Source: Chthoniobacteraceae bacterium (lineage in GTDB: Bacteria; Verrucomicrobiota; Verrucomicrobiia; Chthoniobacterales; Chthoniobacteraceae). From it: a DNA stretch of 64,000 bases. The notes under the pieces were generated by a model, which saw only the letters and a list, made by a program, of their open reading frames with translations, was not told the DNA's origin and did not search any database. Below, piece after piece: positions 19,072 to 22,631 of the stretch. The position numbers were made by a program, and so were the translations under genes. Location: assembly GCA_947479475.1 (NCBI GenBank), contig CANJZW010000006.1, positions 1 to 64,000 on the forward strand, written 5' to 3'. How positions within the stretch are numbered: position 1 is the first letter of the stretch; the number at the start of each line of letters is the position of its first letter.

Positions 19072-21273
19072 ATGACACTCCTCCGTTCCCTCCAATCCGC
19101 CCTCCTTTTCGCCGCCTGTGTGCCATTACAAGCCGCCGACCTCACCTTAAACGAAACGCTCCAACTGCCGGAGTGCCACAGCATCGGCTGGGTCAACGCG
19201 TGGATCAAAGCCAATCCCGCCGCCAAGGGCGAAGGATGGAACGGGGTGCTCGATGAAGCAAAATGGGGCACACCCTCCCCTCAGCAGATCCTGGAGCGAA
19301 ACTGGGACTGGAAGCTCACCGACTCCCAATGGGCCGCAGCCGTTCAAGAAAAGGGCGAGGGAAAGCTTCAGGACGTCAAATTTGAGTTGTGGATTCCCGA
19401 AGGAGTGGAGGTGATCAAAGGCATCATCGTGCTGTCCGGCCATGGAAGCGGCCAGTCGGTCCTCGTCAATGGAGTCCAGTCCGCGATGCTGAAGGCGGTC
19501 GCCCGGGAACTCCATCTGGCCACCTTTATGTTTCTGGGCGATCCCATGCAGCGCGGTTTCTGGCCGAAAAGTCTGCTCTACGAACGGCTCAAAGCCTTCG
19601 CGGACAAGTCCAGTCACCCCGAGCTTCAGCACGCGCCGCTCTTTTTGTACGGCCACTCCAACGGCACCGGATTCTCCGCCGTCTTTCCTTCCACCGAAGG
19701 GCCGCGCGTCTGGGCCTGGGTTTCCATGCGGCCAGGGATCACCTTTCAAGTTTACCAACCGGGTGCGGCGCAGGTTCCTGGACTTGTGATTTTCGGCGAG
19801 GACGATCCGTTTCTCAAAAGGCCGTCCAGGGAAGAAAATCTCGCCGTCGTGCCCCTGATGCGCAAGAACCACGGCGCGCTTTGGAACTTCGCCGTCGAGC
19901 CAAAGACTGGGCACGGCCCCGGCGACAATACCTGGCCCTTCGTCTTCTCTTTCCTTCGCCACACCTTCAATGCCCGCGTCCCGGCCGAAGCCGACCCGCG
20001 ACAAGGACCGGTGAAACTCAATGTTCTCACCCCTGAAAGCGGCCATCTTGGCCAGAACTGGGACGTGAATCAGGGCGGATATCAAACGCTGCCTACCGGA
20101 CGTCATTCGGATTTCAAAGGCGACAAACCGACAGCCTCCTGGCTTGTCAACGCCGCCTATGCTGCCGATTGGCAGGCTTTTCAGCGGGATGGAAAAATTG
20201 ACTCGAAGGCGGCCGTCCAAAAAGCACCCGAAGAACGCGCTAAACCGGCTCTCGCACCCGCACCGCCCGCGCCCGCGCCCGCACGAAAGGCCACTATCGC
20301 CGAGCAACGCATCGAGGCCGCCAAACTGGGCGTCCGCATCCCCAGCTCGATGGATGCGACAGAGCAACAGATCATCTGGTTTTGTCCCGAGAACGCGGGC
20401 GCCGAAGCGTCCAGCCGCCCTGTTCCGCTTCTGGTTTTCCTGCATTCTTGGAGCGGCGGTTTTGAGCAAGGCGTCTCCCTGATCGCCCTGGCGAAAAAAA
20501 AGGGCTGGGCGCTGGTTGCTCCCGACTTTCGCGGCCCCAACAACAGGCCGGAAGCCTGTGCCTCGGAACTCGCTTCGGCCGACATTCTCGATGCGGTTGA
20601 TTACGCCAGAAAACACGCCCGCATCGACCCCACGCGCATCTACCTCCTTGGCGGTTCGGGGGGAGGCCACATGTCTCTTGTCATGGCTAGCCGTGCTCCA
20701 AAGTTGTGGGCCGGAATCAGCGCCTGGGTGCCGATTTCTGACCTCGCCGCATGGCACGCGGAGAGCGTCGTCCGCAAAAACAACTACGCAAAAATGCTCG
20801 AACAATCCTGCGGCGGCGCTCCCGGAACCGCCACTGAGAGCGAATATCGAAAACGCTCGCCGCTTTTTCATTTGGCCGAGGCCAAAGACGTGCCCCTCGA
20901 CATCAATACCGGGATCCACGACGGGCACAGCGGGTCGGTTCCTGTGAGCCACTCCTTGCACGCCTTCAACGCTCTGGCGGCGGCATCAGGCAACTCAAGC
21001 CTCAAGGTTGCCGAGGCCGATATCGCCTTCATGGTGAGCGAGCAGAAAATCCCCGCCGCCCTCGCCAGCCAAACACAGTCCGACCCTGAGCGAAAAAATC
21101 CTGTCCTGTTCCGCCGGACTGCCAGCCAGGCGCGCCTCAGCGTCTTTGAAGGAGGGCACGATTCGGAGGCTGCGGCTGCCGTGGAATGGTTGGCCCGCCA
21201 GCGCTCGGGCCAGCCCGCGGATTTCAGCCTGGGCAGCGCGCCCGCCTCTGCGGCGAGCGCCGTGGGGAAATAG
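19072..21273 (+). CDS. Secreted protein with two fused alpha/beta-hydrolase domains
   Basis: 733 residues with a signal peptide (LLRSLQSALLFAACVPLQAADL). Domain 1 (about 40-310) has the nucleophile elbow GHSNGTG and a GHGPGDNTWPF stretch supplying the probable catalytic histidine, resembling feruloyl-esterase/PHB-depolymerase-like hydrolases. A Pro/Ala linker (PALAPAPPAPAPAR, near 395) joins it to domain 2 (about 420-710), which has LLVFLHSWSG for the oxyanion region, GGSGGGHMS as nucleophile elbow and a late GGHD histidine, as in S9 prolyl-oligopeptidase-like esterases. Both domains look catalytically complete. Substrate is unknown; plant or algal polysaccharide esters fit the sulfatase and DUF1080 genes nearby. 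Confidence 0.8.
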   Translation: MTLLRSLQSALLFAACVPLQAADLTLNETLQLPECHSIGWVNAWIKANPAAKGEGWNGVLDEAKWGTPSPQQILERNWDWKLTDSQWAAAVQEKGEGKLQDVKFELWIPEGVEVIKGIIVLSGHGSGQSVLVNGVQSAMLKAVARELHLATFMFLGDPMQRGFWPKSLLYERLKAFADKSSHPELQHAPLFLYGHSNGTGFSAVFPSTEGPRVWAWVSMRPGITFQVYQPGAAQVPGLVIFGEDDPFLKRPSREENLAVVPLMRKNHGALWNFAVEPKTGHGPGDNTWPFVFSFLRHTFNARVPAEADPRQGPVKLNVLTPESGHLGQNWDVNQGGYQTLPTGRHSDFKGDKPTASWLVNAAYAADWQAFQRDGKIDSKAAVQKAPEERAKPALAPAPPAPAPARKATIAEQRIEAAKLGVRIPSSMDATEQQIIWFCPENAGAEASSRPVPLLVFLHSWSGGFEQGVSLIALAKKKGWALVAPDFRGPNNRPEACASELASADILDAVDYARKHARIDPTRIYLLGGSGGGHMSLVMASRAPKLWAGISAWVPISDLAAWHAESVVRKNNYAKMLEQSCGGAPGTATESEYRKRSPLFHLAEAKDVPLDINTGIHDGHSGSVPVSHSLHAFNALAAASGNSSLKVAEADIAFMVSEQKIPAALASQTQSDPERKNPVLFRRTASQARLSVFEGGHDSEAAAAVEWLARQRSGQPADFSLGSAPASAASAVGK

Positions 21274-21724
21274 GCGGGAATCTTAGGGCGTGTCACCCTC
21301 GACGCCTTTGGCTCAGCTCTTTTGAGCGCAAGCAGTGCGCCACAACAAGAGCCCGGGGCGCTGTGCGCAACGCGTTGCTGCCATTCGCCAAGTTGGGGTG
21401 TTCAAAAACACCACCTTGGGCATGGCCGCCTACCAGGCTTTGACTGCCGGCCGATTGCTTGCGCAAACAACCAAGTAAATTGAGAAAAAAGAATTTGCGG
21501 GTGCGTTGACTTGGCGCCTCCATTGCGGCGTCGCAGGCCCGGGAGCCCGCAACGCCAGTCTTTTTTTTCTGGATCAAAACATCTTGGAGTTTGGAGGCGC
21601 GGGAGCCGCAAGGGTGCCGCCCCTGTGCGCGTTCTTGGGCCGGACTCCCTTGATTTTCCGAACCATTTTGGCGTTTCCAGAACCAGATCGACGGAAGTTT
21701 TTTTAAATAAAACCAAATAAAATA
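21274..21724. other. Intergenic stretch with small hairpins
   Basis: No supportable gene. A hairpin GGTGTT-CAAA-AACACC lies at 21397-21412, and a T8 tract follows GC-rich inverted sequence near 21540-21570. The stretch becomes strongly AT-rich from about 21700 toward the His-rich gene, marking its promoter region. Confidence 0.5.
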
Positions 21725-21750
21725 TAAATTGCGTTAAATCTCGCAATTTA
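21725..21750. promoter_or_regulatory. 9-bp perfect dyad, TAAATTGCG-N8-CGCAATTTA
   Basis: The two arms (21725-21733 and 21742-21750) are exact inverse complements within AT-rich DNA, 60 bp upstream of the His-rich gene start. Length, spacing and AT content resemble operators of dimeric regulators, including metal sensors of the Fur/Zur type, although no known box is matched exactly. Confidence 0.5.
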
Positions 21751-21810
21751 AAGAACATCATGACTTTAATTCAATCGTCTTAATTATTAGACAATCATAA
21801 CCCCAAAACC

Positions 21811-22050
21811 ATGTCCAAACACGACCATCATCATCACGCCGCTCTCCACCACGAAGCCGCCGCTCACCATCACCGTGAGGCCCACACCCACCACCAGGCG
21901 GGTGACCATCACGCCGCCTCGCACCATGCCCATCTGGCGCATGGCCACACCGTGCTGGCGCATGAACATCACGAACATTCCACAAAGCATCACGCAAAAC
22001 ATCACTCCGCTCATCACCCTGAGCATCCCCAGCACGGCCACAAGCACTAG
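21811..22050 (+). CDS. Histidine-rich small protein, putative metal-binding
   Basis: 79 residues, of which 34 are histidine (43%), arranged as HH, HHH and HHHH clusters separated by Ala, Glu, Lys and Asp. It contains no cysteine, so nickel, zinc, copper or cobalt binding by imidazoles is expected, as in Hpn-like storage proteins; this is inference from composition. It has no signal peptide. It is preceded by AT-rich DNA with a 9-bp dyad and followed directly by two hairpins, a layout that argues for a genuine single-gene transcript. No Shine-Dalgarno is seen. The opposite strand is also open, but encodes only Val/Met-rich shadow sequence. Confidence 0.72.
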   Translation: MSKHDHHHHAALHHEAAAHHHREAHTHHQAGDHHAASHHAHLAHGHTVLAHEHHEHSTKHHAKHHSAHHPEHPQHGHKH

Positions 22051-22057
22051 CTTGCAC

Positions 22058-22094
22058 ATTCACCAATCACGCGCCTAGGCGAGGCTTGGTGAAT
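22058..22094 (+). terminator. 9-bp hairpin directly after the His-rich gene
   Basis: ATTCACCAA (22058-22066) pairs with TTGGTGAAT (22086-22094); the loop itself contains the palindrome CGCCTAGGCG. No T-run follows, so it probably acts with the stronger terminator just downstream or protects the mRNA end. Confidence 0.5.
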
Positions 22095-22114
22095 GGCAGC
22101 CGTTCGGACTTAAG

Positions 22115-22145
22115 AGCCAGTTGTCCCGAGGACGACTGGCTTTTA
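22115..22145 (+). terminator. Rho-independent terminator
   Basis: AGCCAGTTGTC (22115-22125) pairs with GACGACTGGCT (22131-22141, one G-T wobble) around a 5-nt loop, followed by TTTT. This is the cleanest plus-strand terminator in the window and ends the His-rich transcript. Confidence 0.8.
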
Positions 22146-22631
22146 GTATTTCAGGGGTAGAGCAAGGGAGCGACCTGGGCGCGATGCGGGAAGGAGGCTC
22201 ACCTTAATCTGCAAACCCACTCAAAATCCGTTCCTTTCACCGGCCCGTGGGATGGCAATACAAACGACACCCACCCGAACCAAAGCCCCTGTCTCTTTTG
22301 GGATTTCCCTTTTGAGCGACGCCGCTCCTGCGAGCAAAGAACTGCCAAAGCGATGTAAATCCCCGCGCAACCGGTGCCGGTCTCGATAGCAACGCGCCTC
22401 AACGGTATCCGTCGAAGCCCAGAAGTCCTGCAAATCTCCATCGGCACCGTCAGGGAAATCCGTCCCCCAGGAGCACGCGATCTTGATGTCTTAATCTGGA
22501 GCGCGCTAAATCTCACTAGCGCTCGATCATCTCATGTCATTTCTCTGCCCGCTTTTTCAGGCGATCTCCCCACGGCTTGGTGCTGCCATGACTTCTTTCA
22601 CTAACGAACATTTGGGTGCGGGTTTGAGACC
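22146..22631. other. Intergenic stretch, nothing recognised
   Basis: Minus-strand open frames of about 70-105 codons exist between 22199 and 22516 but show no domain, overlap each other and lack start context. The stretch precedes the DUF2071 operon and should contain its promoter; none stands out. Confidence 0.5.

Follow-up and report, generated by a model that had tools for sequence, protein, structure and literature searches.

A small histidine-heptad protein from a Chthoniobacteraceae genome, a predicted helical hairpin and candidate metal-sequestering protein

Among small His-rich metal-sequestering proteins, those of Helicobacter are the best known. The His-rich protein Hpn of H. pylori sequesters nickel; it occurs only in gastric Helicobacter and is a protein of 60 amino acids that has two pairs of Cys and carries its His in stretches (PMC4671568). 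The copper storage proteins (Csp) have a helical scaffold that is lined with one type of metal ligand and serves for bulk storage (PMC9484137).

The window analyzed here, a stretch of 64,000 nucleotides, lies on contig C6 of a draft genome of 5.07 Mb in 214 contigs (G000). The following features are relevant to the His-rich gene it contains:

21691-21810, plus strand: A+T-rich leader, probable promoter region
21725-21750, no strand assigned: 9-bp dyad TAAATTGCG-N8-CGCAATTTA, probably a chance occurrence and not an operator
21811-22050, plus strand: coding sequence of a 79-aa His-rich protein of the HHxxAAx-heptad family (orthologs, third-position substitution excess)
21817-21897, plus strand: predicted helix 1, residues 3-29, with HH at 6/7, 13/14, 20/21, and 27/28 and Ala pairs between them (AlphaFold2, family alignment)
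21907-22008, plus strand: predicted helix 2, residues 33-66, with the signature HAHxAHGH at residues 39-46 (AlphaFold2, family alignment)
22009-22047, plus strand: low-confidence His-rich tail, residues 67-79 (pLDDT below 50 for residues 68-79)
22058-22094, plus strand: first 3' hairpin, with perfect 9-bp arms and an interior loop region (folding compared with shuffles)
22115-22143, plus strand: second 3' hairpin, intrinsic-terminator-like, AGCCAGTT...ACTGGCTTT (folding, conserved lower stem)

Like Hpn and Hpn-2 (Hpn-like), the protein is small, has a very high His content, and likely sequesters metal (PMC4671568). Unlike Hpn, it contains no Cys, its predicted helices carry the His in HHxxAAx heptads, and its family occurs in several phyla; compared with the published description, it has neither the two Cys pairs nor the clustered His (PMC4671568). 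With Csp, it would share a helical scaffold lined with one candidate ligand type. There, however, the ligand is Cys in a four-helix bundle, whereas the candidate ligand here is His, on two predicted helices that form a hairpin devoid of Cys. Searches of PDB and Pfam gave no sequence match. By analogy, the protein may work most like Hpn, or it may be, by its layout, a His version of Csp. As Cys is missing and no sequence relation was found, it was assigned to neither group.

The open reading frame of 79 residues with 34 His reported in the first-pass annotation is present at 21811-22050 on the plus strand. His makes up 43% of the protein, which also has 14 Ala. Two congeneric genomes encode orthologs with 94% (G011) and 82% (G009) identity. 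Over 76 codons, the window gene differs from the G011 ortholog at 5, 2, and 40 sites in the first, second, and third codon position, respectively, and from the G009 ortholog at 11, 2, and 39 sites; dN lies at 0.04-0.08, with dS saturated or about 3. Noncoding low-complexity sequence would not give such a codon-position bias; hence, the frame is a real coding gene under purifying selection. The opposite view, that there is no gene but just a low-complexity open frame, could draw on the low complexity itself and on the missing match in family libraries. It is refuted by the strong third-position bias across three species, next to which stands the conserved terminator hairpin, so that its probability is negligible. 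Compared with chance, the coding frame and both 3' hairpins stand out, and the dyad does not clearly do so. Opposite the gene, two minus-strand frames of 90-102 aa (21787-22059 and 21758-22066), Met-rich and Arg/Asp-rich, are by-products of the CAC/CAT His codons and a trap for gene finders.

The window protein had no match in Pfam, NCBIfam, or PHROGs, and a PDB sequence search returned nothing. As the query of a tblastn-based search, it found no relatives, but a profile search did. The resulting family has the consensus HHxxAAxHHxxAAxHHxEAAxHxxxGDHxxAxHHAHxAHGHxxHAxxHxxxAxK, and the window protein matches its profile with the invariant His/Ala/Gly pattern; as this protein is itself part of the profile, independent support comes from the pairwise matches. 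In the alignment, the invariant His fall at window residues 6, 7, 13, 20, 21, 27, 33, 41, 44, 46, and 53. The His content of the tabulated members ranges from 22 to 44%, and the highest values are those of the window protein and the G011 and G009 orthologs. On this sequence basis, we describe an uncurated family from several phyla, built on HHxxAAx heptads with an HAHxAHGH signature. A literature search for its peptide motifs retrieved no paper.

Within the genus, the gene is patchy and occurs in 3 of 12 genomes. Members exist in two other families of the same class. Some class-level relatives have members identical to Methylacidimicrobium proteins, which suggests that the window genome belongs to Verrucomicrobiota. 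Among the matches listed, at least Verrucomicrobiota, Gemmatimonadota, Binatota, Eremiobacterota, Proteobacteria, and Bacteroidota are represented. By record title, the listed Verrucomicrobiota members belong to Methylacidimicrobium, other Methylacidiphilaceae, and unclassified Verrucomicrobiota, and the remaining listed ones to Gemmatimonadetes, Binataceae, Eremiobacteraeota, a betaproteobacterium, Lysobacterales, Rudaea, and Mucilaginibacter; several of these records are metagenome bins, so single taxon assignments may be off. Relatives were not found in the plasmid collection, the E. coli collection, or the viral contigs, although proteins of such low complexity can escape tblastn-based searches. 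The Mucilaginibacter member retains the Ala pattern but has other residues at several of the family's His positions, and hence the Ala scaffold may count for more than the number of His.

AlphaFold2, run on a shallow alignment of 11 low-complexity sequences, places helices at residues 3-29 and 33-66 (mean pLDDT 81.7, pTM 0.63). The protein is thus predicted to be a two-helix alpha-hairpin, and the model suggests that the His tail is probably disordered. Ala recurs with a seven-residue periodicity in four members (p 0.000-0.026), and the periodicity of His is weaker (p 0.025-0.13); both fit Ala stripes that alternate with His stripes. The stretch AAxHHxEAGDHEKAxxHA resembles the alpha-alpha repeat of TPR-like/DUF1771 hairpins. 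Other members match DUF1771, SNAP, and TPR models weakly (best E 0.0056, below curated level), and the window protein itself matches none of them.

A fold search gave no significant match. Its top matches were rubrerythrin and sulerythrin hairpins with TM-scores to the query of 0.61-0.69, which would fit a small redox-metal protein whose hairpin is half of a ferritin-like unit and dimerizes to a four-helix bundle. All E-values were 2.6 or worse, however, as expected of any two-helix hairpin. Diiron sites require carboxylates, and no invariant acidic residues occur in the family alignment. A redox-metal role is therefore given only a very slim chance.

Judged by the His content, the invariant His positions, and the helical layout, the protein most likely binds metal. 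The reading we favor, by a modest degree over even, is that of a metal-sequestering helical-hairpin protein linked neither to one nickel enzyme nor to the dyad. It would be a small, probably cytoplasmic protein (no signal peptide is visible in the 79 residues) whose two helices carry His every seven residues, with pairs of Ala in between, and which ends in a flexible His tail. The helices would pack via their alanines and might form dimers or larger bundles. Several divalent ions (Zn, Ni, Cu, or Co) would bind reversibly to the tail and the stripes of His, so that the protein would act as a metal sink. It would serve no single nickel enzyme, and its expression would not depend on the dyad. No metal genes adjoin the gene, and no metal-responsive site was identified for it. 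The first-pass annotation had proposed a regulated metal-buffering protein, perhaps under a Fur/Zur-type repressor; buffering remains the best inference from the composition and the predicted helical hairpin, and the repression part has been dropped.

A more specific function would be in the service of urease or hydrogenase, for which the protein would be a dedicated store or chaperone of nickel, as Hpn is in Helicobacter. Hpn is likewise small and very rich in His (PMC4671568). A urease alpha subunit is encoded in G000 and G011, and the Methylacidiphilaceae-like members G108 and G129 have a [NiFe] hydrogenase. Urease was not found, however, in G009, G084, G330, or G108, and the urease gene lies on a different contig from the His-rich gene. 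The [NiFe] hydrogenase was likewise not found in G000, G011, G009, G084, or G330 (for the first three, the large subunit was sought), although single gene absences are weak in drafts that are 90-99% complete (93-97% for G000, G011, and G009). As no hydrogenase was found in the window genome and its two congeners and urease is also missing in G009, a store for a nickel enzyme is disfavored and appears improbable.

The main rival to metal sequestration is proton buffering. Here, the imidazoles, with a pKa near 6, would buffer the cytoplasm or shift the folding with pH under acid stress, and metal binding would be incidental. Several members come from settings that we take, from their record titles, to be acidic or peaty; among the matches listed, these are Methylacidimicrobium, Methylacidiphilaceae, palsa Gemmatimonadetes, bog Eremiobacteraeota, and Mucilaginibacter polytrichastri. 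Because of these habitat names, proton buffering stays a rival, and the variation of some His positions to neutral polar residues also suits it. Yet the sample is small and was chosen by peptide patterns, other members stem from pasture or unnamed soils, and the fixed His in HAHxAHGH seem to reflect constraints on single sites rather than bulk buffering. We consider it unlikely, if less so than the nickel store.

As a broader and more tentative proposal, the single-gene His-heptad hairpins found across phyla could be His-based counterparts of Csp that store metal, or buffer protons where bacteria are exposed to acid, on an Ala-packed scaffold, with a His content of 22-44% tuned by lineage. If true, this would define a simple and testable family of bacterial metal (or proton) buffers with ordered heptads, present in several phyla and covered by no curated model, and would make a name available for genes missed by curated libraries.

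Downstream of the gene, the first hairpin was found as annotated earlier, with 9-bp arms (ATTCACCAA/TTGGTGAAT) beginning 7 nt past the stop codon and a z of -4.4 against shuffles. The second hairpin, at 22115-22143, is stronger (z -6.6 against shuffles). It had been noted as a hairpin with a T-run, and only the hairpin holds in full, as its U-tract is short and interrupted (GGCTTTTAGTATTT); it is not among the terminators listed by a consensus scan. G011 and G009 have counterparts in the corresponding position; these retain the lower stem, AGCCAGTT/(A)ACTGGCT, and have different upper stems that still pair. The distant members in G084 and G330 likewise end in strong hairpins with U-runs. For the first hairpin, G011 has one of unrelated sequence ahead of the terminator, at the same place as in the window (z -3.2), and no obvious counterpart was seen in G009. 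An Rfam scan of the window gave a single match, a tRNA.

The genes that adjoin the His-rich gene differ between the window genome, G011, and G009, and no conserved operon partners were found. DUF2071 was considered as a partner and rejected, since in G011 it lies on a different contig from the His-rich gene. As the terminator hairpin is conserved in three close genomes and the neighbors differ, the gene probably forms a single-gene unit with its own terminator. The earlier description as a self-contained gene is thereby supported by the hairpin shared with two relatives and by the unrelated neighbors. As a separate observation, AGCCAGTT is unchanged in three species (counterparts L003 and L004) despite about half of the third codon positions differing; this retention possibly reflects merely a slow change of paired bases.

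Upstream, the leader (21691-21810) contains 74% A+T in surroundings of about 60% G+C and probably harbors the promoter. No Shine-Dalgarno-like motif was seen in it, and a consensus scan gave no sigma-70-type promoter match. As described in the first-pass annotation, the leader carries the 9-bp dyad TAAATTGCG-N8-CGCAATTTA, whose arms are exact and which ends 60 nt before the ATG. With this position, the perfect arms, and four matches to Fur-family proteins in the genome, it could be a true, species-specific operator for a metal-responsive repressor (Fur/Zur or another); none of the four, however, is tied to the site. A search of the 5.07-Mb genome for further copies, allowing up to 3 mismatches, returned none. 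The dyad is also absent upstream of the G011 and G009 orthologs and of the other examined members' genes. Neither ortholog has a dyad of at least 8 bp in the 150 nt before it, and a single one was found before the other examined members (L043), with an unrelated sequence. In 33 other genomes, the dyad pattern is about as frequent as a reversed control pattern. Of 2000 leader shuffles, 65 (about 3%) contain a 9-bp dyad, and across the whole window, 10 seeds of 9-bp dyads were counted, compared with 4-15 (mean 8) in 10 shuffles. The folding z of the dyad stretch is -4.75, for a segment that was selected for containing the dyad. Being unique, not conserved in relatives, and near the chance level for an A+T-rich leader, the dyad is most likely a chance occurrence and no operator; the Fur/Zur-type site proposed earlier thus finds no support, and a species-specific operator is very unlikely. 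A dyad that is unique and unconserved in relatives is an outcome that the first-pass annotation had itself named as a refutation. The dyad followed by TATTTTATTT (21725-21760, minus strand) is the sole terminator-like site listed in 21400-22400. As a minus-strand terminator, it was rejected, with only 3 G-C pairs and a shuffle rate above the observed count.

The family profile also covers a paralogue subfamily, for example G000:C56:21922-22104 (L072:5866-6141), with the same hairpin pattern (HREAAHHFxLAAKHH...AYGHALH). Besides the window's genome, six further genomes of the genus have it. Compared with the window gene product, these proteins are longer (about 90-106 aa), have about 22% His, and are acidic. 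In G000, G001, G004, G007, and G011, the paralogue follows rsmH/mraW in a conserved neighborhood, whereas the window gene is patchy and has different neighbors each time. In G000, G001, and G007, the paralogue adjoins a gene on the opposite strand, which in G000 encodes a carbonic anhydrase.

Elsewhere in the window, positions 19072-21273 encode a protein of 733 aa, both halves of which have alpha/beta-hydrolase-like sequence. One congener (G002) matches it over the full length, and the matches in the others are limited to the first ~380 residues, as would fit a fusion gene.
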